Source of the DNA: Desulfovibrio sp. An276
Lineage (GTDB): Bacteria; Desulfobacterota; Desulfovibrionia; Desulfovibrionales; Desulfovibrionaceae
NCBI RefSeq assembly: GCF_002159665.1
Contig: NZ_NFJC01000017.1
Coordinates: 1 to 64,000 of the forward strand
DNA length: 64,000 nt
Direction of reading: 5' to 3'
This document shows positions 2,943-58,473 of this stretch, one piece after another; position 1 is the stretch's first letter, and every line of letters starts with the position of its first letter. The position numbers and the translations under genes were made by a program. The notes beneath the pieces are model-generated. The model was not told the DNA's origin, did no database searches, and saw only the letters and a list, made by a program, of their open reading frames with translations.

Positions 2943-3062
2943 CCTGTCCTCCCCTCATACCAAATATTAGCTTAAGCAAGTCTAGCGTCCACAAGTCCTA
3001 CCTACAAAAACGCCAAATTCTACACCATTTCTACCCCACCTTCGGCTAAAAAACAAATGTTT

Positions 3063-3105
3063 GCGTAAGCGGCAGCAGGGCTACCAACCCTGCTGCCGCT
3101 TACGC
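3063..3105 (-). terminator. Rho-independent terminator
   Basis: Perfect 18 bp stem (GCGTAAGCGGCAGCAGGG and its complement) with a seven-base loop. On the minus strand it is followed by AAACATTTGTTTTTT. It ends the transcript that carries the micro-ORF array. Confidence 0.85.
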
Positions 3106-3128
3106 TTTCTACCCTACCGAGTTACCAA

Positions 3129-3146
3129 TCATAATAATAACCGCAT
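3129..3146 (-). CDS. Micro-ORF 7, peptide MRLLL
   Basis: Five codons and TGA, preceded by GGAGG at a workable distance. It is the last member of the array before the terminator. The peptide reduces to the Arg and Leu (TTA) core shared with its neighbours. Whether it is translated is unknown. Confidence 0.4.
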   Translation of the reverse strand: MRLLL

Positions 3147-3192
3147 CGTCTTGGGCCTCCTTAATGCCCAACTCAGCTGCGACGTACCACTC

Positions 3193-3222
3193 CTACCCTA
3201 GTAACCCATGTCTTCTTGGCAT
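3193..3222 (-). CDS. Micro-ORF 6, peptide MPRRHGLLG
   Basis: Nine codons ending TAG with GAGGAGG upstream. The C-terminal Leu-Leu-Gly and the bases GGTTACTAGGGTAG match the array pattern. Function unknown. Confidence 0.5.
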   Translation of the reverse strand: MPRRHGLLG

Positions 3223-3265
3223 CTTCCAACCTCCTCGCGAATAGTATAGTTTCCAGATTAACTTA

Positions 3266-3295
3266 CTAGGTTAATAACGGTTGGCCGTACGGCAT
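3266..3295 (-). CDS. Micro-ORF 5, peptide MPYGQPLLT
   Basis: Nine codons ending TAG, with GGAGG upstream. It shares the Leu-Leu-x ending and the conserved leader GAAACAATC before its ribosome site. Function unknown. Confidence 0.5.
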   Translation of the reverse strand: MPYGQPLLT

Positions 3296-3346
3296 CCACT
3301 AACCTCCTTCGTTTGATTGTTTCTCACTCTTGTCCCCAAACCACGT

Positions 3347-3373
3347 CTATCCTAATAACTGCGCTTGGCGCAT
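3347..3373 (-). CDS. Micro-ORF 4, peptide MRQAQLLG
   Basis: Eight codons and TAG with GGAGG about eight bases before the ATG. Its core CAGTTATTAGGATAG is the clearest copy of the array consensus. That core also resembles the core of the phage promoter (GTTATAAGGATAT). Function unknown. Confidence 0.5.
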   Translation of the reverse strand: MRQAQLLG

Positions 3374-3425
3374 GTTATCCTTCCTCCGTCATTTGATTGT
3401 TTCCTCATCCTGCACCCTAGCCACC

Positions 3426-3455
3426 TTATCTTAATAACTGCGACTGGTGCCGCAT
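3426..3455 (-). CDS. Micro-ORF 3, peptide MRHQSQLLR
   Basis: Nine codons and TAA behind a GGAGGG ribosome site, with the conserved leader GAAACAATC farther upstream. Gln-Leu-Leu is shared with micro-ORF 4. Function unknown. Confidence 0.5.
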   Translation of the reverse strand: MRHQSQLLR

Positions 3456-3496
3456 AATATCTTCCCTCCTTTGGTTAAATTGTTTTCCTCTATCCC

Positions 3497-3526
3497 CTAG
3501 CCTAATAACCGCGACCTAAGCCGCAT
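3497..3526 (-). CDS. Micro-ORF 2, peptide MRLRSRLLG
   Basis: Nine codons and TAG behind AGGAGGTGATGTCA. It ends Leu-Leu-Gly like micro-ORFs 4 and 6. Function unknown. Confidence 0.5.
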   Translation of the reverse strand: MRLRSRLLG

Positions 3527-3545
3527 TGACATCACCTCCTATTTA

Positions 3546-3596
3546 TTAAAGTATGCCTTCCAATTTCCTACAGCCTAATAATAGCCATATAGGCAT
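3546..3596 (-). CDS. Micro-ORF 1, peptide of 16 aa
   Basis: First and longest member (MPIWLLLG then CRKLEGIL), with AGGAGG eight bases before the chosen ATG. An in-frame ATG lies two codons earlier but too close to the ribosome site. The first half has the Leu-Leu-Gly array core; here the stop after Gly is missing and reading continues eight codons. Function unknown. Confidence 0.5.
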   Translation of the reverse strand: MPIWLLLGCRKLEGIL

Positions 3597-3637
3597 CAGC
3601 ATCACCTCCTTGCCATAATGCTATATTTCCCTTCTTA

Positions 3638-3680
3638 CTACCTTATAACACATTTGGTGGCATTTTGACGAAAATTTATA
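3638..3680 (-). promoter_or_regulatory. Phage promoter P1
   Basis: Minus strand reads TATAAATTTTC, a spacer, then TGTTATAAGG. Third and nearest of three copies ahead of the micro-ORF array; its 3' part (TAGTAAG) departs from the GATATG consensus. Confidence 0.6.
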
Positions 3681-3700
3681 GATACACCTACCGTTTATTT

Positions 3701-3740
3701 TTCATATCCTTATAACATAAATGACCCCCAAAAATTTAAT
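3701..3740 (-). promoter_or_regulatory. Phage promoter P2
   Basis: Minus strand: TTAAATTTTTGGGGG, a spacer, then ATGTTATAAGGATATGA. A full match to the element repeated ten times in the window, ahead of the micro-ORF array. Confidence 0.75.
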
Positions 3741-3758
3741 AATAGATAAGTCTATTCT

Positions 3759-3795
3759 TTCATATCCTTATAACACAAAATCGCCAAATTAACGA
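3759..3795 (-). promoter_or_regulatory. Phage promoter P3
   Basis: Minus strand: GTTAATTTGGCG, a spacer, then TGTTATAAGGATATGAAAG. Farthest of the three copies before the micro-ORF array and just downstream of the lipoprotein terminator. Confidence 0.7.
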
Positions 3796-3801
3796 AAAAA
3801 T

Positions 3802-3840
3802 AAAAGCCCCACAACGTTTATTAAACTTTGTGGGGCTTTT
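3802..3840 (-). terminator. Terminator after lipoprotein gene
   Basis: Stem AAAAGCCCCACAA pairing with TTGTGGGGCTTTT around a short A+T loop. It lies 11 bases after the lipoprotein stop codon and probably works in both directions. Confidence 0.8.
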
Positions 3841-3850
3841 ATTTTAATTT

Positions 3851-5201: not shown

Positions 5202-5276
5202 GGCTAACCTCCTGCGTCTGATAACTTACGTAAAAATTTAGAGAAGTGCCAGTACTGCCTAAACTGTGAAAATTTC

Positions 5277-5306
5277 TTGACTATCTCCCAACACATATTG
5301 TATGGC
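5277..5306 (+). promoter_or_regulatory. Promoter of RNA unit 1A
   Basis: TTGACT, an 18-base spacer and TATGGC, ending six bases before the outer stem of unit 1A. The -10 is the weakest of the four array 1 promoters. Confidence 0.5.
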
Positions 5307-5312
5307 GAAATC

Positions 5313-5456
5313 GTGCGGGGTGTTCCTGGCTGGTAACGTCCAGGCTCCATTGAAGCGAGCCAATGCAAGTACTGCTGTATTTCCTAGTTATTACATCCCG
5401 GGTACCGTCCCGGGCTCCATTGGCTTCCATAGGCTAAAAATAGCCGCACCCTGCAC
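5313..5456 (+). ncRNA. Structured RNA unit 1A (array 1)
   Basis: A 144 nt unit closed by a 10 bp outer stem, GTGCGGGGTG with CACCCTGCAC (one G-U pair). Inside are two modules, each a stable hairpin followed by GGCTCCATTG: one stem is CCTGG..CCAGG around GTAA, the other CCCGGG..CCCGGG. GCCAATG and CATTGGC between modules can pair. A small hairpin GGCTA-AAAA-TAGCC comes just before the closing strand. The predicted start site is the first base of the stem. No significant ORF fits. Function unknown. Confidence 0.7.
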
Positions 5457-5468
5457 AGCATTTACCTA

Positions 5469-5498
5469 TTGACACTCACCTTCCCCTCAATCTATAAA
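5469..5498 (+). promoter_or_regulatory. Promoter of RNA unit 1B
   Basis: Consensus TTGACA, 18-base spacer, TATAAA, five bases before the unit's outer stem. This is the best sigma70-like promoter in the window and fixes the array 1 strand as plus. Confidence 0.75.
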
Positions 5499-5503
5499 AT
5501 CCT

Positions 5504-5664
5504 GTGCAGGGTGTTTCCTGGCGGGTAACCGCCAGGCTCCATTGAAGCTAGTACATTTTTTTGTAACTTGAACGGCTATACAGCTTTTCCCGGCAGCCAT
5601 GCTGTCGGGCTCCATTGAAGCAATATTGTGATTGCTACAGGCTAAAAATAGCCGCGCCCTGCAC
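5504..5664 (+). ncRNA. Structured RNA unit 1B (array 1)
   Basis: 161 nt. Outer stem GTGCAGGGTG with CGCCCTGCAC (one T-G wobble on this strand). First module: CCTGGCGG-GTAA-CCGCCAGG then CTCCATTGAAGC. Second module: CCCGGCAG..CTGTCGGG (with G-U) then CTCCATTGAAGC. Then an AGCAAT..ATTGCT hairpin and GGCTA-AAAA-TAGCC. The first hairpin has a GNRA loop, which would be lost on the other strand. Same architecture as unit 1A with different stem sequences. Confidence 0.75.
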
Positions 5665-5703
5665 GACCTTTGACTCCTACACCTCGTAGTCAGCGTCACA
5701 CTA

Positions 5704-5737
5704 AAGGGTATAGCTTGCTTGCGAGCTATACCCTTTA
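5704..5737. terminator. Hairpin between RNA units 1B and 1C
   Basis: AAAGGGTATAGCT pairs with AGCTATACCCTTT around a short TGCTTGCG loop. The right arm overlaps the -35 of unit 1C (TTTACT). No long T-run, so it may be a processing or regulatory hairpin rather than a terminator. Confidence 0.45.
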
Positions 5738-5763
5738 CTTACCAATATCAAATGCTGTATAGA
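5734..5763 (+). promoter_or_regulatory. Promoter of RNA unit 1C
   Basis: TTTACT, 18-base spacer, TATAGA, seven bases before the outer stem of unit 1C. Same geometry as the other array 1 promoters. Confidence 0.65.
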
Positions 5764-5770
5764 CATAGCT

Positions 5771-5857
5771 GTGCAGGGTGTTCCCGATGGGTGACCATCG
5801 GGCCCCATTGAAGCAATATTGTTATTAATATAGGCTAAAAATAGCCGCACCCTGCAC
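5771..5857 (+). ncRNA. Structured RNA unit 1C (array 1)
   Basis: 87 nt, a single-module version. Perfect outer stem GTGCAGGGTG/CACCCTGCAC, hairpin CCCGATGG-GTGA-CCATCGGG (GNRA loop), CCCATTGAAGC, an A+T linker and GGCTA-AAAA-TAGCC. The stem differs from units 1A and 1B at paired positions, so pairing is kept while sequence changes. Confidence 0.75.
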
Positions 5858-5861
5858 GACC

Positions 5862-5891
5862 TTTACTTATCACCGCCAGATAATGTATAGT
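5862..5891 (+). promoter_or_regulatory. Promoter of RNA unit 1D
   Basis: TTTACT, 18-base spacer, TATAGT, seven bases before the outer stem of unit 1D. The bases around it (ATGTATAG, TAGTTGTGCA) resemble those before unit 1C. Confidence 0.6.
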
Positions 5892-5898
5892 CGTAGTT

Positions 5899-5962
5899 GT
5901 GCAAGGTGCTCGCAATGAAGGTTGGTCGAGTCCTTCGTTGTTACATGGGCAACACCCTGCAC
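5899..5962 (+). ncRNA. Structured RNA unit 1D, reduced form
   Basis: 64 nt. The outer stem GTGCAAGGTG/CACCCTGCAC has one mismatch. Inside is one hairpin, CAATGAAGG..CCTTCGTTG, with a T-G pair. It lacks the CTCCATTGAAGC and GGCTAAAAATAGCC blocks. It keeps its own promoter, so it may be a degenerate or specialised copy. Confidence 0.5.
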
Positions 5963-5993
5963 ACCTCTACTTCTCCTTAAGTAGTATCACGTC

Positions 5994-6028
5994 AAAGGGG
6001 CGCAGCCTGCTTGCAAGCCGCGCCCCTT
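5994..6028. terminator. G+C-rich hairpin after array 1
   Basis: AAGGGGCGC pairs with GCGCCCCTT, with an inner TTGCTTGC-type loop like the hairpin between units 1B and 1C. Likely transcription end or processing signal for array 1. Confidence 0.45.
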
Positions 6029-6160
6029 GTCTGTATATTATCTGTACACTTGCTTTACACTTAACCCCGGCAAGTAGCGTTGAGCTCCCTGCACCATGCG
6101 CCCTTGGATGCGGGGAGCTTATTTGCACGAAATACGCCAGTGTATCGGCGGCTTCGAGCA

Positions 6161-9712: not shown

Positions 9713-10867
9713 TTAGGACGACAAACAGTCAAGAAATCTTCTTCTAAACTCTTCTATCCCAACAGAGTCATCTTTATAAAGTTTTGCACATTCTATATGC
9801 TTGTTGTCCAAACCGTATTTGAATATCATACCATCTTCATTGAAATATCCGTCTTTTATCCTTACTGCTATCAAAAGCTTTGCAATTCTGTTGGCGAACT
9901 TGTCCTGAATCATTCTTGCATATGCCACGTATCCCTGCATAGCCATCATAAACTTTGTTGTGTAGACTTCCTCCTCATCTGCTATTCCACGAGGAAGTTC
10001 TCCGGTATCAGCAAAATACTTTTTTGCTTCCTCTGCCGTATTACCAACTACGGCATTCCAGAGTATGGCTCTTATGCGATCTCGCTTGACGCGACTTATA
10101 TTCGCTACCTCGTTCAGCACGATACCCAGGAACTCCTGGTGTCTGGTCGGATGGTTGTTGCGAATACTGCTCCAGGAGTGCGTTCGAAACTCTCCCCTGG
10201 CAGCCGTTGTTTTCACGAACTCCTTGTACTCGTTGATAAAGTCGTTGCCTGGTTCCTCCTTGCAGAACAACACCAGATTGTCCGAATACCTGTAATACGT
10301 GTGTTCCACAGGGCAGTGATCCCTCAGCCACCTCACGATAGGCCGGTCAAAGTATCTGTTGCCCACGATGTTTGCCAGCGCCGGTGAGCACGCGCTGCCC
10401 TGCTGCAAGGACGAGAATCTTCCGTTCCAGATAGTACAATAGCTGGCTATCAACCTGGCGCCCCTGGCTATCATGCCGCAATCCATCAGCGCCTTCTCGA
10501 TATGGGCATACGAAATGTTGTCGTAATAATGACGTATGTCCGTCTTGATCATAATAGCGCTGCCCTGACACACGGCAAGCTTTTCGGCCACGTTCACTCC
10601 GGGACGATAGGCGATGGCTACCTCGTTATACGGAAGGTCGTCCATCATAATATTAAACACCATGCCAAGTCGCCGCTGGATAACCGACAACGGAGACTTG
10701 CTCGCGTACACGGTACGCTTGCCCACTTTGATCTTCCTGCGCAGGTCGTCCCGGAATTTCCTGGCGTAGGCCATGTGGTTGTTTTTAATATGCAGCAGAC
10801 TGCCCAACTCAGAGAAGTTATCAATGAGCTTCATCATCTGCGATGCTTCAGTACTCCTGAGCTTCAT
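9713..10867 (-). CDS. Reverse transcriptase, retron/unknown-group type
   Basis: 384 aa RT. Visible blocks: AIAYRPGVNVAEKL (86-99), motif A KTDIRHYYDNI with Asp110, motif B-like QGSACSPALANI (156-167), motif C YRYSDNLVLF (192-201) and QEFLGIVLN (244-252). The QG..SP.LAN form is typical of retron and related bacterial RTs, not of a group II intron ORF; no maturase or HNH domain follows. The usual YxDD is YSDN, so the second Asp is Asn. The start has GGAGG upstream. It is second in an operon from promoter P5 and ends at a strong terminator. No DGR-type template/variable repeat pair was noticed next to it. Confidence 0.88.
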   Translation of the reverse strand: MKLRSTEASQMMKLIDNFSELGSLLHIKNNHMAYARKFRDDLRRKIKVGKRTVYASKSPLSVIQRRLGMVFNIMMDDLPYNEVAIAYRPGVNVAEKLAVCQGSAIMIKTDIRHYYDNISYAHIEKALMDCGMIARGARLIASYCTIWNGRFSSLQQGSACSPALANIVGNRYFDRPIVRWLRDHCPVEHTYYRYSDNLVLFCKEEPGNDFINEYKEFVKTTAARGEFRTHSWSSIRNNHPTRHQEFLGIVLNEVANISRVKRDRIRAILWNAVVGNTAEEAKKYFADTGELPRGIADEEEVYTTKFMMAMQGYVAYARMIQDKFANRIAKLLIAVRIKDGYFNEDGMIFKYGLDNKHIECAKLYKDDSVGIEEFRRRFLDCLSS

Positions 10868-10881
10868 CCTGTCTCACCTCC

Positions 10882-11421
10882 CTACATATAGCACAGATTT
10901 GCAAGCGTGGCCTCATCTACGAGGTCTTCCCTGTGGCTACCATTGTATATGGTCTCAATGTGCTTATCGAAAATGTAGTCATCAAACCTGCTGTAGTTTT
11001 GACCAATCAGTATCCGTATCTCCGGCCTTGATGAAATATTACCGTACGACTGAAAAAGCGTGGTGACAAAGCGAACATTCTTGTCTACCGGAATGGGAAC
11101 ATCACAGCCCTCCCTTTCGTATACAGGTACAACAATAAGCTGTCTGTCCTCATCATTACTGTGAACGATTTCCTCGCAGAAATGAATGTTCTGATAATTT
11201 ATCGCAGACATAATATTACTCGCTATTCCTCTTGGTACGACAACAAAGCTTCCGAACACGTCTATGAGTCTTCTTTTCAAAAACGGATATGCCTTGATTG
11301 AGCATGTGTGAATTGTGGCTCTGCCATGTTTATTAAAATACCTGTTGTCCGATTTGTCGAAAACAAATGTGTGCAGTACAGCCTGCTGTACTGGAATGGA
11401 AATGGAAACTGTTCTGTACAT
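10882..11421 (-). CDS. Hypothetical protein co-transcribed with the RT
   Basis: 179 aa, start chosen at the ATG with GGAGG six bases upstream. Only 14 bases separate it from the RT gene and both follow promoter P5. It has a beta-rich N-terminus (YRTVSISIPVQQAVLHTFVF) and a cluster of aromatic residues and histidines, with no motif I recognise. Position makes it the best candidate for an RT accessory protein. It does not resemble the Avd helical bundle of diversity-generating retroelements. Confidence 0.65.
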   Translation of the reverse strand: MYRTVSISIPVQQAVLHTFVFDKSDNRYFNKHGRATIHTCSIKAYPFLKRRLIDVFGSFVVVPRGIASNIMSAINYQNIHFCEEIVHSNDEDRQLIVVPVYEREGCDVPIPVDKNVRFVTTLFQSYGNISSRPEIRILIGQNYSRFDDYIFDKHIETIYNGSHREDLVDEATLANLCYM

Positions 11422-11492
11422 GCAAACCTCCATTGTTATATTAACGCATACAGCGGTTTAACCTATTGTTAAGTTAAACAGCCATACGTAAC

Positions 11493-11530
11493 ATTACCTT
11501 ATAACACATAAACACCCCAAAAATTTAATG
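11493..11530 (-). promoter_or_regulatory. Phage promoter P5 (RT operon)
   Basis: Minus strand: TTAAATTTTTGGGG, spacer, TGTTATAAGGTAATG. It stands about 70 bases before the RT partner gene. Confidence 0.7.
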
Positions 11531-13281: not shown

Positions 13282-14871
13282 ATGGAAGAACTGCAACTCG
13301 ACATAACACGCTCCGAGGTAGCGGAACGCCTTTTGAGCCTGAACGGACAGCAGTATTCGCTCAGGGACTATCCCATGTTCGTGAACATATTGAATAGCCC
13401 CTGGCCGAGGCGACTCATGCGCTCTGGCCGTCAGGTATCCAAAACAACGACAATGGGCGCTGACCTCACCATATCCGTTGTCGAAGAGCCCTACACTGCC
13501 TGTCTGTATTGCAACTCGTCCCAAGCGCAAACCAGAAGCTTTTCCAATAGCAAACTTGCGCCATTCTTACGGCAGTCGCCACTCATTTACCACACCTTCT
13601 TCAAAGGAAAGAGTGTGATAGACAATGTGTTTGAAAAGCGCCTGTCGAATTGCAGTTCCATTGAAATGAGCTACTTCTGTGATGTGGCTGACCGCGTACG
13701 TGGCAAGAGCGCGAGATCCATGTATCTGGACGAAGTGCAGGACATGCTCTGGGAAGCCATGATTGACGCTGAGGAGTGTCTCTCGGCGGCTGCTCACCCC
13801 AAGATCATGTACGCCGGTACCTCCAAGAGTACCATCACACCTCTTGAGGATCTGTGGCTCAACTCCACCAAGAAGGAATGGCTCATACCATGCTCTGGTT
13901 GTGGCAGCTACAACAGGCCGGGACGCAAGAACATAGGCAAGCACGGGTTGATTTGCTCAAAGTGTGGCAAGGAGCTCAATACATACGATGGCTTCTGGTA
14001 CAGCTTTGCTGACACAGACAAGGAGCCAATGGTTGATGGCTACTGGATACCCCAGATTATCATGCCCATCCATTGCTGCTCCGCCGACAAATGGAAGCGC
14101 CTGCTGGAGAAGCTGGAGACCTACCCTGACATCAAGTTTGACAACGAGGTAATGGGCTTGCCCAACGGTGAGGGAGACAGTCCCATTACCGAAGAAATGC
14201 TCAGGAATATGTGCATCGATAGCCTGAAGATGTCCGATGAGCCAATACGCAGCATACAGGAATCCTACGATGGCTTTGTCGCGGGCATAGACTGGGGTGG
14301 CGGTGGCGTTATGGGTACCAGCCGCACTACCCTGCACATCTATGCATATGGAACATCTCCTGCACGGTACACCTGCGTGTTTGGCCGAATATATGATGAG
14401 GGTGAACCTACACGACACGTTGAGGATATCGCCAGGATACTGCTGCGATACAACTGTGATGCTGTGTACGGTGACCATGGCGGGGGCAATTTCGCTATGT
14501 CCCAGCTACGCCAACTGGTAAGTGGGGCCATGCAGGTTGTTCCTGTCATGTATAGCGAAGCCTCTTCCCCTCTGAAGTGGAACGAGGCAGGCAAGTTCTT
14601 TACCGCGAACAGAACCACGGTTATCGACGAGTTCTTCGCCGACATGCAACGCAATCTGATACACGCCTACAACTGGGAAGAGTTTCGCCCCAGTGCCAAG
14701 GATATCCTCAACATTCGCCAGGTGTACATAGGTGAAGAGATAGGTAAACCAAGGCGCGTATGGAGACACAGTCAGCAGGCACCTGACGACAGCCTGCACT
14801 CCATGGTATTCGGCTGGATTGGATGCAGGGTTATTACTGGCAGACTTGATTTTACAAGTAGTTTCACATAG
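13282..14871 (+). CDS. terL: Terminase large subunit
   Basis: 529 aa packaging motor. The ATPase half has SGRQVSKTTTMG (Walker A-like, about residue 48) and ARSMYLDEVQDM (Walker B plus catalytic Glu). The nuclease half begins AGIDWGGGG, the first metal-binding Asp of the RNase H-like fold, with further Asp in YGDHGGG and QAPDDSLHS. A four-cysteine ribbon (CSGCG..CSKCGKEL) lies between the halves. It translocates and cuts DNA at the portal. Last gene of its operon. Confidence 0.9.
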   Translation: MEELQLDITRSEVAERLLSLNGQQYSLRDYPMFVNILNSPWPRRLMRSGRQVSKTTTMGADLTISVVEEPYTACLYCNSSQAQTRSFSNSKLAPFLRQSPLIYHTFFKGKSVIDNVFEKRLSNCSSIEMSYFCDVADRVRGKSARSMYLDEVQDMLWEAMIDAEECLSAAAHPKIMYAGTSKSTITPLEDLWLNSTKKEWLIPCSGCGSYNRPGRKNIGKHGLICSKCGKELNTYDGFWYSFADTDKEPMVDGYWIPQIIMPIHCCSADKWKRLLEKLETYPDIKFDNEVMGLPNGEGDSPITEEMLRNMCIDSLKMSDEPIRSIQESYDGFVAGIDWGGGGVMGTSRTTLHIYAYGTSPARYTCVFGRIYDEGEPTRHVEDIARILLRYNCDAVYGDHGGGNFAMSQLRQLVSGAMQVVPVMYSEASSPLKWNEAGKFFTANRTTVIDEFFADMQRNLIHAYNWEEFRPSAKDILNIRQVYIGEEIGKPRRVWRHSQQAPDDSLHSMVFGWIGCRVITGRLDFTSSFT

Positions 14872-14881
14872 TTAAAAAATA

Positions 14882-14928
14882 TGGCGAGCAGTATGAAAAC
14901 GCAAATGCGCTTTGCATACTGCTCGCCA
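14882..14928 (-). terminator. Strong hairpin with minus-strand U-tract
   Basis: TGGCGAGCAGTAT pairs exactly with ATACTGCTCGCCA. On the minus strand it is followed by TATTTTTTAAC, a typical terminator. On the plus strand it closes the terL transcript without a T-run. It marks the left edge of array 2. Confidence 0.8.
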
Positions 14929-14938
14929 CTTTGTAAAC

Positions 14939-15063
14939 CAGGTTTGATGCTATGCCGCGACGGAGGCGGAGCGAGGCTGTGCGAGCGTAGCGGAGGAGTG
15001 GGACTGCATTTCCACATAATGGTGGGGTTACCCCACCGTTGCTGTGAAGCAACATGAAACCTG
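14939..15063 (+). ncRNA. Structured RNA unit 2.1 (array 2)
   Basis: 125 nt, outer stem CAGGTTT/AAACCTG. Long imperfect arm with apical GCGTAGC, lower clamp ATGC/GCAT, then hairpin GGTGGGG-TTA-CCCCACC and hairpin GTTGCT-GTGA-AGCAAC (GNRA loop on this strand). The arm is the least regular of the six. Strand assignment is tentative. Confidence 0.75.
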
Positions 15064-15088
15064 ATCTGAAAATTAAACCTCAACGAAT

Positions 15089-15214
15089 TGTGGTCCGATG
15101 CATGGTGCGTCGAGTCGCCTGTACGGCGTAGCCGGTAAGGCGTTCGACGAGACATGTATTACCATTGTGTGGTGGGGTTACCCCACCGTTGCTAAAGCAC
15201 AACATGAGACCACA
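15089..15214 (+). ncRNA. Structured RNA unit 2.2 (array 2)
   Basis: 126 nt, outer stem TGTGGTC/GACCACA. Arm base ATGCATG/CATGTAT has a pair that is G-U only on the plus strand; arm GTCGA..TCGAC with apical GGCGTAGCC. Then ATTACCA, hairpin GGTGGGG-TTA-CCCCACC and hairpin GTTG..CAAC. The outer stem shares almost no sequence with unit 2.1 yet pairs fully. Confidence 0.8.
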
Positions 15215-15228
15215 GAAAACCGTCGGTT

Positions 15229-15359
15229 ACAGGGTTTGATGCGAAGGCTGCGATTCTATCTTCGTAGGGCTTGTCCCGGAGAAGTTAGAATGGCAGCGTG
15301 CAGCATTGCCAGATAATGGCGCGGTTACCGCGCCGTTGTTTTACAACCTGAAACCCTGT
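15229..15359 (+). ncRNA. Structured RNA unit 2.3 (array 2)
   Basis: 131 nt, outer stem ACAGGGTTT/AAACCCTGT. Clamp ATGC/GCAT, arm GCTGC.ATTCTA/TAGAAT.GCAGC with the looped TTCGTAGGG inside, hairpin GGCGCGG-TTA-CCGCGCC, hairpin GTTGT-TTT-ACAAC. Compensatory changes relative to other units occur in four stems. Confidence 0.8.
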
Positions 15360-15361
15360 GT

Positions 15362-15496
15362 GCAAAGTCAGATACAATGAGTCGGGTGAACACTAACAGA
15401 TTCGCAGGATCTGTTAGTGTTCGGCTCGACCGCATGGTATTAGCCATGAGTGGCGTGGTTGCCACGCCGCTGCTCGAAAGCAACATGAGACTTTGC
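15362..15496 (+). ncRNA. Structured RNA unit 2.4 (array 2)
   Basis: 135 nt, outer stem GCAAAGTC/GACTTTGC, only two bases after unit 2.3. Clamp ATAC/GTAT, arm AACACTAACAGAT/ATCTGTTAGTGTT (13 bp) with apical TCGCAGG, hairpin GGCGTGG-TTG-CCACGCC, hairpin GCTGCT-CGAA-AGCAAC. A T-rich stretch (TTTTTG) follows on the plus strand. Confidence 0.8.
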
Positions 15497-15505
15497 GATT
15501 TTTGT

Positions 15506-15640
15506 CAAAAGGTCAGATACGTTGGTTACGCGGATGAGGGCCAGGAGGCGTAGCATCCTGGGCCTCTACGCGTCCGACGGTATTACCAATAAGTGACGTG
15601 GTTACCACGTCGTTACTGATGCGTAACATATGGCCTTTTG
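15506..15640 (+). ncRNA. Structured RNA unit 2.5 (array 2)
   Basis: 135 nt, ten-pair outer stem CAAAAGGTCA/TGGCCTTTTG with one T-G pair on this strand. Clamp ATAC/GTAT, arm GAGG.CCAGGA/TCCTGG.CCTC with apical GGCGTAGC, ATTACCA, hairpin GACGTGG-TTA-CCACGTC, hairpin GTTAC..GTAAC. ATTTTTTATC follows on the plus strand. Confidence 0.8.
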
Positions 15641-15654
15641 ATTTTTTATCGATA

Positions 15655-15797
15655 TTGAAGGTCAGATACGTTTTATGCACGCGGACATGTGGCTCAAAAG
15701 CGTAGCGCATTGAGCCGCGTGTCCGCGTGGAGGGAAGTATTACCAATAGATGACGTGGTTGCCACGCCGTTACTGATGTGTAACATAGGACCTTCAA
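15655..15797 (+). ncRNA. Structured RNA unit 2.6 (array 2)
   Basis: 143 nt, perfect nine-pair outer stem TTGAAGGTC/GACCTTCAA. Arm CACGCGGACA..GGCTCAA against TTGAGCC..TGTCCGCGTG with apical AGCGTAGCG, clamp ATAC/GTAT, ATTACCA, hairpin GACGTGG-TTG-CCACGCC (one pair is G-U only on the minus strand) and hairpin GTTAC..GTAAC. It ends ten bases from the stop of the convergent 64 aa gene. Confidence 0.8.
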
Positions 15798-15806
15798 GTT
15801 TAAGTG

Positions 15807-16001
15807 TTAAACGCGTACCTTACCAATACTGATGATATGGTAAGCATTTACCGTGCATCGCTTATCAGCGTCTCGCACAATCTCCAGCCATGTGCCGTGA
15901 CAGTGCACGACACCAACGAGGCACTGTGAATTGGTAGTGAATACCTTGCACCATTCCCCGTTGTATTTCTGCAGGAAGTCAGCATTGAACTCATCCGGCA
16001 T
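15807..16001 (-). CDS. Hypothetical protein (64 aa) beside array 2
   Basis: Small protein starting MPDEFNADFLQKYNGEWCK, with AAAGGAG eight bases before the ATG and promoter P6 upstream. It contains four cysteines and looks beta-rich; an Sm- or SH3-like fold is conceivable but unproven. Minus-strand transcription through it would continue across array 2 to the terminator at the array's left edge. It may therefore be linked to the array. Confidence 0.65.
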   Translation of the reverse strand: MPDEFNADFLQKYNGEWCKVFTTNSQCLVGVVHCHGTWLEIVRDADKRCTVNAYHIISIGKVRV

Positions 16002-16126: not shown

Positions 16127-16166
16127 TCATATCCTTATAACAAAAAAGGGGGTCAAAAATTTAATC
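16127..16166 (-). promoter_or_regulatory. Phage promoter P6
   Basis: Minus strand: TTAAATTTTTGACCCCC, T-run, TGTTATAAGGATATGA. Identical over nearly 40 bases to P10 before the ubiquitin-like gene. It overlaps the last codons of the DNA polymerase gene. Confidence 0.8.
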
Positions 16167-19058
16167 GACTTTACCGTGTGTATCACCGTAATTCGGCCCC
16201 CAGCCTACATCATATTTCCAGACCACAGGAAGCCATGGGCACTGCTTGCGAGTCTCCTCGACTATCAGATTATCGAGGGTAGACTTGAGATCTGTGTATG
16301 CTCCATGGGGCGCCTGGAAGAGAATAGAGTCGTGAACGGTAAGAAGAACGCAACTGCCATCGTTACGAGACTGCAAATACTTGTTTACGCGAATCAGGCA
16401 GGACATGACGATATCCGAACTGGTACTCTGTATCCTTGCGTTTACTGCCTGTCTGTGCATGCGCTCCCTGTCACCTCTTGAATAGTATGCGTATGGGAAA
16501 CGCCTACGTCTTCCGAAGTATGTATAGACGAAATTGTGCTTATCCGCGAAGTTTTTCGTATCATTTATGTAACGAAAAACACCTGGATATGTAACGAAAA
16601 ACTGATCAAGATAATGCTGCGCTTCTTCTACTGTCACATCGATGCGCATACCGTTCCAGAGTTGCTCCTTGAGGGTTTGTGCACCTACCATATAAATGGT
16701 ACCGAAGTTTACTTTCTTTGCCACCTGCCTCTGCTTATACTCCTTGGTCGTCTTGTCCTCCTTGTTGACGCATATCTGTTCGTAGGTAAACCTACCGCTA
16801 CTGATACCCGCGCCAGTCAATGAGTGAATATCCTTCCCGGTATTGAAAGCATCGATCAGGTGCTCATCCATGCTGTATGCGCACAGAGTACGCATTTCAG
16901 CGTTCGATATATCAAGGTCGTATATGTCGTAGCCTTCGTCTGGAAGGAAGAGAGCTTTCAGGTTGAGCATCTCGTCCCCGCCCATCTTCAGACTAAACGG
17001 CACGTTTTGTAGGTTAGGGTTGCTGGAACTGAGTCGATACGTAGCCGTACCAGTCTGCAAAAAGTCTGTGTGCAGACGGCCATCGTACGCTGACTTGTCC
17101 AGCCAATTCTTCAGGTAGGTGCCTGAAGTCTTGGACAATCTTCTATACAGAAGCAGATCATTCAGAAAGTTCAGATCCGGGTGAGCGTCAGCCAGATTGT
17201 TGAGACTTTCCTTGTCCACAGCGGGAGCGCCACTGTCTGTATAGTTAAGTATGGGGAGCTTGAGGTCCTCATACAGGATCTTCACGAGATCCGCGCTGGA
17301 GTTCGGGTTGAAGCTCACCCCTATCTCCGTGCGCATACGATCAAGAACTTCTTCCGTCTTCCTCTCCAGTATGCCCTGATACTCGCGTATCCTGTCACGG
17401 TCCATGCGGATACCATGCAACTGCATCCTGGCGAGCTGTTCGGACAACGGCATGGTAATGTTCATGTATGCCTCGCCAACCGGACGCAACATGCTCATTT
17501 CCTTGCCGTATTTACGCCTGTTCAACTGGTCCTGTATGTCACTCTTGCGCATCTCTTCCAGCTGAATATCGTATATCATCCTGGTGGTGATAACGTCCAT
17601 CGCGGCGTAACGAAGAATGGTATCAAGATCGATATCCTCGTAGGACTTGAACTTGAGCTCCTCTGGAATATCAGGCTCAACGACAATTTCCTGGGGAATC
17701 TCCGTATCCGGCAAGCGCTTTGCCATTCGACTAAGCGAGTCCAGATACTTCTTGGGTATCACAAGCTCGCCCTTGCGCTTCACGCGCTTTACCTCAGCCA
17801 GAAATGCCGTGTCCTTGACGGTTATGTACTTTGCGGCAGCCCATTTGGCGAGCAGCTCGATACGTGTGGCCGTATCCAGACCTACCCACCACTCAAGCAG
17901 GTTCTGCCTTGTCTTCTCCTTCGCCTCATCCTCAAGCTTGCGAACTTCAACATCCTTGTCCTTCCACGCTACCTCCCTTATTTTCTTGAGTTCCTCTTCA
18001 TAGTTGGCGTATCCGGGAAGCCTGTCGCGAGTAATATCCTTCAGGCTGTACTCGCCCTGCTTGGCCTCATCCAGGGTATGCTCGGCAAGAATCACATCCC
18101 AGTACTGAGGAGGACACGTTATCCCCCTGCCCCAGAGATAACGCATATCAAAGGAGCCGTTGGCCATAAGCAGCTTCACCTTGGGGTGATTGAGTATCCT
18201 CTCGGCTGCCTCCTGAATTGCCTTGCGCTCATCAGCTGTGAACGGCGCCTTGCGATGGTCAAAGGGAAATGCCAAACCCTTGTTCTTCGCCCACGAAAAG
18301 GACATCACAATAATGCGATCTTCCAGCACATGTGGCAACAACGAGGTTGTTTCCGTATCGAACGCCACCGGTACGGCTTCCTGTTGTGACCTGTTTATCC
18401 CCTCCTCAAGATTCTTCAGCTTTGCCAATATCTCCGGCACTGTCACCGGACAATGCACTATCGGTTCCGTATGGTTGCGTGTACCGTAGTAGACATCCAA
18501 TGCCTTCTGACAGTCACTCACAAACACGTTCACCAGACCGTGATTCTTCACGATTGTTGACAAGTCATAGGCGCATACCACAGGAACCGTTCTGCCATTC
18601 TTGTCAGTAAACGGCTCAAGTGTGCCACGCTTGGCTGATACCACGCCCTTGATGTTCAGCGCCCTGTAGGCATCCACGCCCATCGCGAGTATGACATCTG
18701 GTTGCTGTAAATCGATGAAATCCCTGGCGTAGTTCGCGCACCTGGATATGATATCCGCAGAAATGTCATACCGTTTTGTCTCCCTGTTGTAGGAAGGATT
18801 GCAGCAACATGCGTAGCCGTAATAGCATGTAGGCTTGTCTCCTGCCGGAAGCCGCATGTACAGCTTGTTCATAATGCTGCGGATAAGGTTCGATCTTTGT
18901 CCCATGAACGGGACACTGCCTTTGCCATTCTCCGTGGCGGACCGTGCATCCGGGAAGCCTCCCAGTATGTACAGTCCGCCTTTCTGCTCACCAGCCCTGT
19001 TTGGGGTTACGCACGGACGCCCCTCAAGAGGGCAACCGCTACACAGGGAAGAGTTCAT
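16161..19058 (-). CDS. DNA polymerase I family with N-terminal uracil-DNA glycosylase-like domain
   Basis: 965 aa replicative polymerase. Residues about 1-200 form a UDG-superfamily domain with cysteines for an iron-sulfur site (SSLCSGCPLEGRPCV, YACCCNP). A 3'-5' exonuclease follows (VAFDTETTSLL), then family A polymerase motifs DLDISNAEMRTL (A), KKVNFGTIYMVG (B region) and LTVHDSILF (C). The same fusion is known in SPO1-like phages. The start is the ATG with AGGAG eight bases upstream; a longer reading would overlap the primase-helicase gene. It is the last gene of the replication block. Confidence 0.92.
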   Translation of the reverse strand: MNSSLCSGCPLEGRPCVTPNRAGEQKGGLYILGGFPDARSATENGKGSVPFMGQRSNLIRSIMNKLYMRLPAGDKPTCYYGYACCCNPSYNRETKRYDISADIISRCANYARDFIDLQQPDVILAMGVDAYRALNIKGVVSAKRGTLEPFTDKNGRTVPVVCAYDLSTIVKNHGLVNVFVSDCQKALDVYYGTRNHTEPIVHCPVTVPEILAKLKNLEEGINRSQQEAVPVAFDTETTSLLPHVLEDRIIVMSFSWAKNKGLAFPFDHRKAPFTADERKAIQEAAERILNHPKVKLLMANGSFDMRYLWGRGITCPPQYWDVILAEHTLDEAKQGEYSLKDITRDRLPGYANYEEELKKIREVAWKDKDVEVRKLEDEAKEKTRQNLLEWWVGLDTATRIELLAKWAAAKYITVKDTAFLAEVKRVKRKGELVIPKKYLDSLSRMAKRLPDTEIPQEIVVEPDIPEELKFKSYEDIDLDTILRYAAMDVITTRMIYDIQLEEMRKSDIQDQLNRRKYGKEMSMLRPVGEAYMNITMPLSEQLARMQLHGIRMDRDRIREYQGILERKTEEVLDRMRTEIGVSFNPNSSADLVKILYEDLKLPILNYTDSGAPAVDKESLNNLADAHPDLNFLNDLLLYRRLSKTSGTYLKNWLDKSAYDGRLHTDFLQTGTATYRLSSSNPNLQNVPFSLKMGGDEMLNLKALFLPDEGYDIYDLDISNAEMRTLCAYSMDEHLIDAFNTGKDIHSLTGAGISSGRFTYEQICVNKEDKTTKEYKQRQVAKKVNFGTIYMVGAQTLKEQLWNGMRIDVTVEEAQHYLDQFFVTYPGVFRYINDTKNFADKHNFVYTYFGRRRRFPYAYYSRGDRERMHRQAVNARIQSTSSDIVMSCLIRVNKYLQSRNDGSCVLLTVHDSILFQAPHGAYTDLKSTLDNLIVEETRKQCPWLPVVWKYDVGWGPNYGDTHGKVD

Positions 19059-19074
19059 AAAGAATCTCCTTTTG

Positions 19075-22000
19075 TCAGATATCAAAGTCCATGTCTGTAT
19101 CCTCACTTCCTTTACACGTTGCGGAGCCGCCAAACTCTGGGTCGTTATCATAGCAGGACATCGGCGGTTCCGGTGGGCAGCAACTTTCGGATACATGCCT
19201 CTGACCTGGCTGCATCTGGTTGCTGTCAAAATCATCTCGCAGATACGCCATCTGCACCACCGAATAGGATGCGGGAGTCTTGGCGTCCACGATATTGAGT
19301 TCGTTCACAATTTGCTTGTGTGTCTGTTTATCTATATTTCCAACAAGATACTTGTTCTTGGAGATGCTCTCGCGCATACCGCCTTCAGTAAGGTTTTTGT
19401 ACTGACTATACCCCATACCGAAAATCGCTGTGCGAATCTGTCGCCAGTAGAATACCAGCCAATTCTTTGACGGTATGCAGTACACTCCGCAATGAGAGTT
19501 GTTGAGAACATTGATGTCATCCATCGTACCCTCGATTATGAGGTCACGAGGAGACACCTTCTCGGATATATTCCCATTGGAAGCCTGTATGCATTTGGTA
19601 AACAGAATGCTGTCAAGTATCCTGCTTTTGGAATCTGCTGTATACACTGTTTCAAGCCTCGTCTTGTTTGCCGATACAACATCTTTATACAATTCTATGG
19701 GGTCGTGCGGATCATCCTTTGTCCCACACATTTCATACACGGTGAGAACTGTGGATACCGCAGACACAAAGCGCGATGACACAGGAGGAGTTGTCTGTAC
19801 CTTCGACAATATGGTGTCCAGGTCTCTGCGCCGGTTTATGATTTCGGGTATGTACCCGATTAATCCTGTAGTGATGGACTTGCGCAGCTCGTGCACTTGC
19901 TGTTCGCTGAACTTCTCGTTGATGATGTCGGCGATATTCCTGCGCGTGTAGTCCTTCTTGGTGTAGAGAACGACAATACGGGTCAGGAAGGTATCATCGT
20001 CAGGAAGGTGGATAGCAGCACACAGGATAGGAGATTGCAGCGTGTACTCAATGACATCCGCCTTTGCCGCCGAACCTCGGCCAATCTTCGAACCACCAGT
20101 GGGCACACCATACGCAAGTTTCAGAATGGACTTCATGCGCATATTGTGCTCGGTGGTGTCGTCTGTCTCGGCCTCGTCAATATTCAGCAACTCCGAGGAT
20201 CCATCCATTGCCTGATAGATGTACGCTTCCGTCGCATTCGTCGTAACTTTCGCGGGCTCCAAAATGGACGGGATTTCATGTCCGGTGCTGAATATACCCC
20301 CCAAGAGTCCTTGTGCGAACGAGGTCTTGCCCGAAGTTGACTCGCCAGTAATGAACGTGACGTTCACACGCTTGGTAGCCAACTGGATGGGCAATGACAT
20401 GATCCATGCAGCGATGTACTTGCGCATGATTTCGTGATTCTCGAACAGCCATCCATCAACGATATTGAGAATATCGTTGTAGGTCTTGTTCAGGTCAACC
20501 TGCATGCCGTAGTACAAATCCTGAATATCATTGACAGTCTCAGACCACTTGTCCTTGTTGTTGATGGCAAAGTAGAAGCGACCGTCACGGATATCGCGTA
20601 TTCTCTCCCACTCTATCTTCGAACCGGACTCAGGGTTGTACGTGCCCCGAAACACACGTGAACCGTTAACGACATACACATGGTTGTTGCCCGCGATATC
20701 CTTGTAGTGGATACCCTGCCCGATTCTCGTGAGTATGCCTTTGTCCACGCAAGCTGCCGCCAACATGGACATAACCTTGCGCATGACAACCGTACCCCGA
20801 CGAATCTCCTCTGTGCGAAGAGAGGTAGGATTCGAGGCGTACTTCTCGGCCTCGGCCTGTGGCGGCGTGATAGTAACTGCATTGCGCAGGATACGCTTGA
20901 GCCAGTCCACCATGTCCATACCAACGTATTGCGTGACCATTGTCTGCAGAGCCATCTCCGAGCTGAGTGACAGCATGCAGTAGGTCTCGTTCAGGCGGGA
21001 GTACACACAGTACACATTTACGCCCTGACGGCTTTCGTAGAACGGTATGCTCACCTGATCCACAAAAGCGTCATAGGCCACACGGGTAGCGCCATCCATG
21101 GTATTCACATCGTGCACATCGTTGTACACAACGTCATCCAGGGAAAGGTCCACACCGGTCTTGTTGGAATAGACCGATATGAACATCGCCTTGTCGGCCT
21201 TGTCATAGACTGCCTTCAGCCAGTAGGCGAGCACTTCCCGCAACTTGCCGGCACGTTCGCTGGCAAGGTTGGACGCAACGGTTTCCTGTCCGGACGCCCT
21301 GGCAAGCTCCTGCTCTGAGTCAAGCCGAGCGTTCAGCTTGGCGAGAGCCTGATCGCACTGCTCCTCTACCCAGGGCAGTTGATTCAGGTAAGTATTCTCG
21401 CGCTGAACCCATATCTGCTCACGTACAAAGTCGTAGCCGTGTGTTTGTACGGCCTCATCCAGGTCGCCAACATTGTTGGCCATCTCCGGAGGCCAGGTAA
21501 AGATGCGGTACTGAATGGGAGGATTGCTTGGGTCACCACGATGGTTATCGGGACGGCACAGCCAGCTGTACGCGATCTCTGTGCCCTTCTTTTCGCCCGG
21601 AACGTCGGTGACTATGCACAATGTGCGTATCCAGCACTCTCTCAGGAACGAGAAATCGGTGGCAGCCCCACCACCGCCGGCAAAGATGGGAAAATCCGTG
21701 GTGTACCCGTTTTTGAGTTGCTCTACCATAATCGAAAGAGCGTCAAACTCCCCTTCGGTTATGACAGCAGCTGTACTGGTATCAGAGATAAGGCGGGAAT
21801 AGTGATGGAGCCCAAACACGCCCATACGGCGCTTTTCCACAGGATCCTTCACTATGTAGAAGTTTTTAGAAAAGAGAGTACGCGCAACATTGGGGTCAAG
21901 GTCCTCAACCTTGTCCACCGAGGCCATAATGGCCTGGGTTTCCTTCGCACGCATACGCAGCTTGAAGTTTGATATGGTACCAGGACTGTCGTTGTACCAG

Positions 22001-38922: not shown

Positions 38923-40026
38923 CTACCCGGCCTTGAAACTGTACACTGGCTTGATGACCTTTACCACATCAGCAGTTGGACCAATGTTGGCAAGTATATT
39001 GTCCATGCCCTTGTAGGCCATCGGACTTTCGTCCAGAGTTGTCTGCTTTACTGAGGTTGAGTACACACCGGCCATTTCTCGCTGAAACTCTGCCATGCTC
39101 AACTTCTTCTTGGCCTGACTCCTGCTCATAATCCTGCCTGCGCCGTGGGGAGCCGAGTAATTCCAGTCTGCATTACCCTTGCCCCTGCAGATAAGGCTGC
39201 CATCTCGCATGTTGATTGGTACAAGGAACAGCTCATCCTTCTGTGCAGACACTGCGCCCTTGCGAAGAATCATGTTCTTCATGTCGATGTAGTTGTGAAT
39301 TGTGGTGAAGTTGTTTGTGGGCAACGCTTCCATGCCGAACATATTGAACAGTATACTCCTGACAATTGTCTCTCTGTTCAGCACTGCGTATTCCTGAGCG
39401 ACACGCATATCATTGAGATATGTGGTAAATGCGGAGTCCGTCAGATACGCCAACTCCTGTGGTACCTTGGCGCTGCACTGTTCGATAGCCAACTGCTGGT
39501 AGTAGTTGGCTATCTGCAAACCAAGATGCCTGCTGCCGGAATGCACAACCAGATACAGAGATCCCTCTTCATCCTTGTCGATCTCGATGAAATGGTTCCC
39601 ACCACCGAGAGTACCGACACTCTTGGCAGCCCTGTCCATATCCACATGGTCTTTGCATACAAGTCCATCAAGCATGTCCTGCACTTCAGGGCATGGAACA
39701 TGATCATGTATGGAAAAGCCCGCTGGTACATACTTGCGGATAACCTGGTCCAGCTTCTCAAAATCAAGGTCCACTGCGCCAAGATTCACGACAAACATTC
39801 CGCAGCCGATATCCACTCCGACAAGATTGGGGACTACCTTATCGGTAATCGTCATGGTAGTACCGATAGTGCAGCCCTTGCCTGCATGGATATCCGGCAT
39901 CAGCCTGATACGGCTACCTTCAGTGAACTCCTGGTTACACAAGAGCTGCACCTGCTTGATGGACTCACCGTCCACCTCATCTGTAAATATCTTTGCTGTT
40001 GAGTACTTTCCTGTTATCTCTATCAT
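38923..40026 (-). CDS. rtcB: RtcB-type RNA ligase
   Basis: 367 aa. RtcB signatures: MPDIHAGKGCTIGTT, VGVDIGCGM (Mn-binding Asp and Cys), GTLGGGNHFIEI, HSGSRHLG, SAPHGAGRIMSRS with the guanylylated His and DESPMAYKGM. It joins RNA 2',3'-cyclic phosphate to 5'-OH ends, for example broken tRNAs. GGAGG precedes the ATG. In phages it can undo host anticodon-nuclease defences. Shorter than E. coli RtcB (408 aa) but all motifs are present. Confidence 0.92.
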   Translation of the reverse strand: MIEITGKYSTAKIFTDEVDGESIKQVQLLCNQEFTEGSRIRLMPDIHAGKGCTIGTTMTITDKVVPNLVGVDIGCGMFVVNLGAVDLDFEKLDQVIRKYVPAGFSIHDHVPCPEVQDMLDGLVCKDHVDMDRAAKSVGTLGGGNHFIEIDKDEEGSLYLVVHSGSRHLGLQIANYYQQLAIEQCSAKVPQELAYLTDSAFTTYLNDMRVAQEYAVLNRETIVRSILFNMFGMEALPTNNFTTIHNYIDMKNMILRKGAVSAQKDELFLVPINMRDGSLICRGKGNADWNYSAPHGAGRIMSRSQAKKKLSMAEFQREMAGVYSTSVKQTTLDESPMAYKGMDNILANIGPTADVVKVIKPVYSFKAG

Positions 40027-56977: not shown

Positions 56978-57018
56978 TTCATATCCTTATAACAAAAAAG
57001 GGGGTCAAAAATTTAATT
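56978..57018 (-). promoter_or_regulatory. Phage promoter P10 (Ubl cassette)
   Basis: Minus strand: TTAAATTTTTGACCCCC, T-run, TGTTATAAGGATATGA, identical over about 38 bases to P6. Confidence 0.8.
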
Positions 57019-57424: not shown

Positions 57425-57660
57425 TTTGCGCTCCTAAGCACCTCTGTTCATACCCAACCAAACCCTCGGCCAGCCGCAGCTCTTCCGGATATGCCTCAAC
57501 TATGTCCATGTGCTGGCAAAAGGTTTAGCGGTCAGGTGAAATTTTTTTGAAATTTCCTTGATTTTTGCTCGATTTTGCAGTAATAACAAGATGTTGATTG
57601 TGATTTTGGGGCGGAATGGCAATTGTATAGTGATTTACTACTATTCAGATGATGTAATTT

Positions 57661-58473
57661 GAAAACGATTTTCAATTATACCAAATACAGCAATTGCAAG
57701 TACTTATGAAAATCGGGTTCGAAAACGCTACCGACAGCAAAAAATCAATTATGTAGTTGGTTGTCTGTCAGTAGCAAAATCGGGGTCTGCATAATCCTGT
57801 CAGTAGCATTTTTTCGTAAAGTATTACAGCATGTTGCAGAGCATGCTACTGACAGCGCATTTTGGCCCCAAAAATGCTACTGACAGGATATTCAGTAAAA
57901 TCATAAAGTTATCCCATTTCTACTGAAAGATATGTCCCAACACCTCCTGGGGAACATATACATATTCGTATGGGTATAAAAAATAAAAATCGAAATTGAG
58001 AAAGCCCGGGTGGCGGTATTATATTATTATTATTATTATTATTAGATCGGATCTCTTTTATTTTTATTATTATTATTATATATGTGTAAGTATTTGATAT
58101 TATTTACTTTTTTTCTAACTATCCAGAATCATTACTTTTTCTATTTCTCAATTTTTTACTCTCTAGAATATGTATATGTTCCAGACCACATGTCGGGACA
58201 TATCTTTCAGTAGATCGGGCTTAACTTCTCTACATCATTGACAAACCTGTCAGTAGCTATTTTTGGGCAAAATTGAGCTGTCAGTAGCTGCTCTCGTAAG
58301 CCATTAAAATATTTTACGAAAAATACCTACTGACAGAATTATGCAGACCCCCAAAATGCTACTGATAGAAAGCAACATACATAATTGGTACCCTCTCTGT
58401 CAGTAGCTCTCTGAGAGCCAATTTTTCTAAGTGTTTGAAATCATTGATTTCACTATAATTGAAAACGATTTTC
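57661..58473. other. Palindromic iteron-type origin of replication (candidate)
   Basis: Eight 12-base iterons (TGCTACTGACAG or complement) sit at equal mirrored distances around base 58066-58067: 57765, 57797, 57844, 57875 on one side and 58247, 58278, 58326, 58357 on the other, paired 31-32 bases apart. Further outward, GAAAACGATTTTC occurs on both sides at mirrored positions. Between the arms, 57918-57966 and 58167-58215 form a 50-base inverted repeat around an A+T core with TTA repeats, a candidate unwinding site. Extra iterons lie near 57727, 58397, 58691 and 58713. No initiator gene is visible here. Confidence 0.72.

Follow-up and report, generated by a model that had tools for sequence, protein, structure and literature searches.

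A candidate multi-unit retron-like system, with a tandem RNA array and an Sm-like gene, in a phage lineage represented by a Desulfovibrio contig

We propose that the locus described here is a phage-encoded, multi-unit retron-like system, in which one reverse transcriptase (RT) serves a tandem array of structured RNAs in trans, with an Sm-like protein as a partner. We assign this reading a probability of about 0.58. The array can be read as a set of RT templates supplied in trans because its closing stem, junction base, stem-loops and long hairpin, taken with a retron-type RT, make up the retron plan. A fuller version, which we hold to be slightly short of an even bet, is a natural retron array: an RT of a new YxDN clade would act in trans on 3 to 8 msr-msd units, yield several distinct small DNAs per infected cell and form a ribonucleoprotein with the Sm-like protein, perhaps disarming host defenses. 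Doubt attaches mainly to the junction seen in the window itself, to the YxDN motif, to the retron motifs that are missing and to the shared descent of neighboring genes.

The window, by which we mean the whole 64,000-nucleotide stretch of DNA analyzed, matches a 64.3-kb contig in IMG/VR classed as virus. Its array sits between the terminase large subunit gene and a 64-amino-acid (aa) ORF, which itself comes after the polymerase gene. The features used below are as follows.

16161-19235, minus strand: family-A DNA polymerase gene
16134-16147, minus strand: promoter-like motif TTTTTTGTTATAAG (presumed function), ahead of the Sm-like gene and the array
15807-16001, minus strand: gene for a 64-aa protein of predicted Sm/Hfq fold (AlphaFold2, Foldseek, profile search)
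15655-15797, minus strand: unit 1 in transcript order (sixth in an earlier note), outer stem TTGAAGGTC/GACCTTCAA, by folding
15505-15641, minus strand: unit 2, outer stem TCAAAAGG/CCTTTTGA, by folding
15362-15497, minus strand: unit 3, outer stem GCAAAGTC/GACTTTGC, by folding
15227-15361, minus strand: unit 4, outer stem ACAGGGTTT/AAACCCTGT, by folding
15088-15215, minus strand: unit 5, outer stem TGTGGTCT/GGACCACA with a last pair U.G, by folding
14939-15063, minus strand: unit 6, outer-stem core CAGGTTT/AAACCTG, by folding
15752-15768, minus strand: 7-bp hairpin with an NAA loop in unit 1
15595-15611, 15452-15468, 15318-15334, 15171-15187 and 15021-15037, minus strand: the other five NAA hairpins of the window
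14874-14928, minus strand: intrinsic-terminator-like hairpin followed by a T run, closing the array (inverted repeat 14882-14899/14911-14928; A6 at 14874-14879 on the plus strand)
13282-14871, plus strand: terminase large subunit gene
11498-11504, minus strand: core of the promoter-like motif, ahead of the 183-aa ORF and the RT gene
10882-11433, minus strand: 183-aa ORF upstream of the RT gene, no family match
9713-10867, minus strand: retron-type RT with motif C YSDN (PF00078, 5.7e-9)

The array comprises six tandem units (14939-15797). An earlier note, made from the letters of the window, had placed six units here, and each of its positions holds one; its claim of a single tandem family with compensated stems is borne out by covariation. 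Every unit is more stable than all 200 of its dinucleotide shuffles, with z scores of -4.75 to -8.77 on the plus strand and of -3.91 to -8.05 on the minus strand (200 dinucleotide shuffles). In an alignment of the six units, with the arms written as N, standard pairs fill 98.6% of 145 cells, a percentage that is partly circular because the structure was drawn from the same six sequences. Both sides have changed in 12 of 26 pairs; the outer stem accounts for 7 of these, the NAA hairpin for 3 and the two remaining helices for 1 each. The observed value for paired cells, both-sided changes or covariation score was reached by none of 500 shuffles, and the number of pair types was equaled by 15 of 500. 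The outer helices span 8 to 11 bp; the arms have little sequence in common between units and keep their pairing. The note's remark that the array holds no ORF is too strong as worded, in that short ORFs of 53 to 127 aa, all putative, do run across it on both strands.

The units had no match in Rfam at the gathering score, and nothing came close to that score at E values up to 10; on the 12 sources scanned, the Rfam matches were tRNAs and group I introns, with no family on the units. A search of the host genome with the whole array brought up the array and an inverted repeat within it, and nothing else. Therefore, at that sensitivity, the arms are not copies of resident sequence.

Ten further phages carry an Sm-like gene together with an array of 3 to 8 recognized units. 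They were gathered by terminase, polymerase and RT searches and are denoted L011 (L004), L013 (L005), L014, L012+L017, L018, L019, L020, L043 (with the near-identical L048), L044 and L074. With the window, the 12 loci amount to eleven phages by our count, since L012 and L017 come from one metagenome and have an end unit in common that we take as an overlap. The unit statistics count that shared unit once and leave out L048 as a near-duplicate of L043; L020 and L074 may contain further, uncounted units. In the window, L011, L013 (L005), L014, L017 (whose array runs on into L012), L018, L020, L043, L044 and L074, the array comes immediately after the Sm-like gene and shares its strand; in L019, the gene has two units on either side. 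The Sm gene follows directly on the end of the polymerase gene in the window, L011, L014, L017, L018 and L044. Between these two genes are one ORF each in L020 and L074 and two units in L019; other ORFs lie upstream of the Sm gene in L043, and the L013 contig ends before any polymerase gene. As separate observations, a tRNA gene lies within the L018 RNA array (11165-11237), and group I introns are present in the DNA polymerase regions of L014 (8048-8366) and L044 (8584-8795), on the minus strand.

Unit sequences are unrelated from phage to phage. A covariance-model search against phages, a check that the earlier note had proposed, was run on 17 sources with model R1 (six units, arms as N) and reached significance for the window's own units only; the best scores elsewhere were a weak plus-strand match in the window (E 0.07) and one in L011 (E 0.34). 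The model is blind to the other arrays because the arrays share little sequence, and these were found by synteny. What ties the arrays of different phages together is thus synteny, plan and junction rather than a sequence profile. A DNA search of 50,697 phage records returned no array match, and one Sm protein searched against 50,697 phage records gave a single chance-level match (E 2). A scan for hairpin clusters found none outside the array phages within the loci examined, which were flanks rather than whole contigs; owing to its spacing and pairing cut-offs, it missed the arrays of L012, L019, L020 and L074.

The array RNA is most likely the minus strand. Folding energy is good on both strands, so energy alone does not pick one. 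Read on the minus (Sm-gene) strand, 54 NAA hairpins from the 12 loci have 378 paired positions, comprising 324 Watson-Crick pairs, 44 G.U, 4 A.C and 6 others; the hairpins were picked by rule, in one pass that treated G.U and A.C alike, and then sorted by eye (L074 by eye only), and the window's share is one G.U and no A.C, so that the strand bias rests on the relatives. The minus strand is favored because of this excess of G.U over A.C, the promoter-like motif, the terminator-like hairpin and L018, where a same-strand gene lies downstream of the array. Before the 64-aa ORF, the promoter-like motif takes the form TTTTTTGTTATAAGGATATG. The window has 13 copies of TTATAAG, of which 11 are on the minus strand, and 10 of those 11 read GTTATAAG. 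A GTTA(T/C/A)(A/G)AG site is present in the stretch upstream of the Sm gene at all 11 loci looked at, a pattern picked after some of them had been seen. Separately, a 39-bp identical direct repeat (window 16127-16165 and 56979-57017) holds the promoter-like motif. On polarity, then, these signs go against the earlier note, which described the complement of the likely RNA. It also knew of no family with this plan; on the minus strand, the plan is that of the retron ncRNA as described in PMC6868368.

On the Sm-gene strand, the 54 units share a succession of a closing strand (a1), a short hairpin, a 7-bp NAA hairpin, a linker, a long variable arm and the closing partner (a2). The NAA loop was the search key for the units of other phages and its presence in 54 of 54 is therefore by construction; the rest of the plan is not. 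The loops read AAA in 36 of the 54, TAA in 8, GAA in 5, AAAA in 3 and CAA in 2. Of 46 segments, 41 form a first short hairpin of 4 bp or more; the mean z is -2.5 against mononucleotide shuffles, 8 of the 54 segments having been dropped, nearly always for length. The arm is not one clean hairpin in all 16 example units folded. According to PMC6868368, retron ncRNAs have end complementarity of about 8 to 30 nt, a priming G directly 3' of or within a1, msr stem-loops with 3- to 10-nt loops and an msd hairpin with a stem of 10 to 50 bp; the same source describes how an 8-bp msr stem, whose loop is UUU, was bound by a region-Y fragment of Retron-Eco1 RT.

The closing stem and its junction were examined across these units, with calls that take the best helix blindly, so that a few stems are probably wrong (e.g., L011 unit 8 and L043 unit 2). 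In a stricter ungapped test, the outer-stem score was 21.9 for matched strands (n = 50) versus 17.9 for swapped ones (n = 167), with a P value of about 1e-10 that, like the other stem and junction P values, counts units as independent even though they are related; this test was written after a looser RNAduplex test, run first, had given a P value of 0.11. The true closing partner was the best in its own row in 30 of 50 cases by the ungapped test. The base 3' of a1 is G in 35 of 54 units, and AG stands before a2 in 31 of 54, in every case opposite such a G; the combination occurs in 6 of 176 with swapped partners. This G...AG junction is absent from the window (0 of 6 units: C/CT, C/GA, T/CT and three C/TC), from L013 (0 of 4: T/TC and three C/TC) and from L019 (0 of 4: T/AC, C/CA and two A/CA). 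Often the same base stands on both sides of the stem end. At least 31 of 54 units, from eight phages, have G/G; three of the six window units and three of the four L013 units have C/C, and two of the four L019 units have A/A. If the natural retron array holds, the priming nucleotide itself may have been switched between phages.

All eleven array phages encode RTs of one clade, and among known RTs those of retrons are closest to it; PADLOC, too, ranks retron RTs at the top. For the window RT, the best curated NCBIfam model is retron_St85_RT (1.8e-27; 96 bits, below the cut-off of 235), and all seven PDB sequence matches at E values up to 1 are retron RTs. Foldseek places retron structures at ranks 1 to 15 for the predicted model, with DRT9 structures also among the matches; TM-scores by query length are 0.41 to 0.51 in the top 20. 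PF00078 is above its cut-off in 11 of the 12 array-phage records, the exception being the L017 contig, whose partner L012 has a clade RT that is itself below that cut-off. Independently of this, the L012 contig holds a second RT, of the YMDD type, beside its YxDN RT (L063 3212-4255, minus strand); it is above the Pfam cut-off. At E values up to 1e-40, clade RTs occur in 2 of 348 genomes of the class, the window's own and one of the same genus, which we identify as Desulfovibrio piger PG-251-APC-1. The RT profile matched none of 22 more distant phage records, some of them fragments, and a search of 50,697 phage records with the RT gave distant matches in 14. In the window, RT and array are about 4 kb apart on the same strand, with the terminase and other genes on the opposite strand between them. 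Co-occurrence of RT and array may reflect shared ancestry, both being neighbors in one phage lineage.

Motif C of the clade RTs is Y/F-x-D-N in all 11 that were read, with Phe once, and the Asp-to-Asn change could lower or abolish RT activity. Among seven family RTs aligned with a Klebsiella phage RT that passes the retron cut-off with 324 bits, none has the NAxxH of region X (the Klebsiella phage RT itself reads HASIH), and in place of the VTG of region Y, present in the Klebsiella phage RT, all seven have FLG, VLG, LLG or ALG. Validated retron RTs have NAxxH in 14 of 16 and VTG in 14, according to PMC6868368. No retron effector was recognized by Pfam on 39 window ORFs or by PADLOC on three.

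The 64-aa protein is probably Sm-like and RNA-binding. Its AlphaFold2 model comprises a helix and five strands (pLDDT 88.7), and Foldseek ranks 1 to 10 in the PDB are Hfq, Sm or LSm-type by title, with a best E value of 0.015 and none below 0.001. The eight members used for a profile (the window and seven relatives) align weakly with a common pattern; Hfq/Sm proteins make up 35 of the 36 PDB sequences that the profile matched at E values up to 1, and the best E value is 0.019. Similar ORFs in L074, L043 and L044 were judged by eye. All eight members score below the curated Pfam cut-offs for Hfq and LSM (best E values of 0.023 for Hfq, 0.035 for LSM and 0.004 for Hfq_1), and DUF6897 matches four of the eight, at best with 6.6e-4 and 19.7 bits, below its cut-off of 23.9; the window's own protein matches none of Hfq, LSM, Hfq_1 and DUF6897. 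The Sm/Hfq fold is assigned because the single weak matches agree with one another.

We infer that the array is transcribed, that RT and RNA pair and the units are reverse transcribed into DNA, that the Sm-like protein forms a ring and binds, and that the phage benefits; counter-defense or phage DNA metabolism would be our guess for that benefit. A minus-strand transcript from about 16130 would carry the Sm-like protein first and then six structured RNAs, each with a1, a junction base, a pair of short stem-loops of which the NAA hairpin comes second, a long variable hairpin and a2. The RT would recognize the short stem-loops of each unit and, starting at the a1/a2 junction, copy the long hairpin, so that the array would yield an assortment of distinct small DNAs or RNA-DNA hybrids, while the Sm-like protein may bind, protect or chaperone the array RNA.

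The position of the Sm-like gene, directly before the array or, in L019, inside it, in all eleven phages, would also suit an Sm-like-protein/sRNA module, in which the array is cut into stable sRNAs bound by the adjacent protein and the RT is an unrelated neighbor. The promoter-like motif ahead of the Sm gene and the start of unit 1 fewer than 10 bases past its stop codon in the window fit such a module, as does the Sm-like gene itself, for which we know of no counterpart in retrons. Like Hfq/Sm-like proteins with their sRNAs, a small predicted Sm-fold protein is encoded here beside structured RNAs; unlike them, it is phage-encoded, has 64 aa and accompanies a tandem retron-like RNA array. We nevertheless judge this explanation rather unlikely, since it accounts neither for the junction bases nor for the a1/msr/msd-like plan nor for an RT of the clade in each phage, and neither an antisense seed nor a U-rich tail common to the units caught our eye.

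The window arms, which differ in sequence between units and stay paired, could alternatively supply nothing but stable helices, the units being structural decoys, or sponges, for a host defense sensor, nuclease or RNA-binding protein that they would titrate. Past the NAA hairpin, the most enriched 5-mer in 50 units is CTACG (16 units versus 4.4 expected) and the fourth is CTTCG (17 versus 6.7), both at or near the arm tips in the units looked at, which would suit such a role. Conserved junction bases and a dedicated RT are not predicted by it, and we consider it improbable as a separate explanation; it is compatible with the retron-like reading if the RT-DNA is the decoy. That the units act as DNA-level or transcription-termination elements between convergent operons (a terminator cluster, or a replication or packaging site) is hardly tenable: the array does lie between converging terminase and Sm genes in the window, L014 and others, as do the last units of L019, but the L018 array is followed on the same strand by another gene, the array ends in a separate terminator-like hairpin, and the 44 G.U versus 4 A.C in the NAA hairpins suggest selection on one RNA strand.

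The retron-like reading, which we prefer, sets the locus apart from known systems in several ways. Retrons are bacterial defense units with a YxDD catalytic motif and typically one ncRNA each. Compared with them (Retron-Eco1/Ec86, Eco2, Eco8, St85 family), the system here has 3 to 8 tandem RNAs per RT, located away from the RT gene; it combines YxDN, in RTs without NAxxH or VTG, with an Sm-like gene and no recognized known effector, and it is common to a phage lineage. The likeness lies in the RT, nearest to retron RTs by profile, sequence and predicted fold, and in the RNA order of closing stem, junction base, short stem-loops, long hairpin and closing stem (PMC6868368). Diversity-generating retroelements (DGRs) also have phage RTs, and those of three D. 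piger prophages are called DGR in PMC12724379. We rejected a DGR for the window: self-BLAST revealed no template/variable repeat pair beside the RT (9713-10867), and the best RT models are retron. The defense systems DRT2 and DRT9 have, to our knowledge, one ncRNA per system; here there is an array, and the Drt2 model scores the window RT at 1.3e-6 and 28 bits against a cut-off of 390. In both, the RT works with a structured ncRNA (PMC12039810), a likeness to which the DRT9 fold matches add. GOLLD and ROOL are structured bacterial or phage RNAs too, but large and homo-oligomer-forming as described in PMC12286853, and Rfam gave no match here.

In the open full-text literature, which leaves subscription papers mostly uncovered, no title or abstract start among the matches listed dealt with tandem natural retron RNAs in phages or with retrons accompanied by Sm/Hfq proteins; retron, Hfq and msDNA never occurred together in one paper, and the term YxDN appeared nowhere among the matches listed on retrons. 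Engineered "retron arrays" are reportedly, to judge from a title, the subject of a published paper. If our reading is true, the retron plan has been turned round, with multiplexed reverse transcription in a virus's service, and the locus would be a possible natural counterpart of engineered multi-template retrons. It also provides an RT clade with an unusual active site and a new structured RNA family.

Some further features of the window deserve mention. An RtcB RNA ligase gene (38923-40026, minus strand) was ruled out as part of the module, since RtcB occurs in just three of the 12 array-phage records, and two of those three are near-identical phages. A second repeat region (5202-6118, minus strand) looks like another tandem structured RNA family, with ends GTGCAGGGTG/CACCCTGCAC, hairpins GGCTATTTTTAGCC and elements GCTTCAATGGAGCC. 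An imperfect palindrome of 0.82 kb (57658-58476; 69% self-complementary, E 1.4e-68) is rich in CTGTCAGTAGC / GCTACTGACAG repeats and is a possible replication or partition site. Finally, a row of micro-ORFs was recognized by eye at 2943-3850 on the minus strand, each with a GGAGG-like site, an ATG and 5 to 9 codons, most ending in Leu-Leu-Gly or similar before the stop (MRLRSRLLG, MRHQSQLLR, MRQAQLLG, MPYGQPLLT, MPRRHGLLG and MRLLL); three TGTTATAAG promoter-like sites lie ahead of it.
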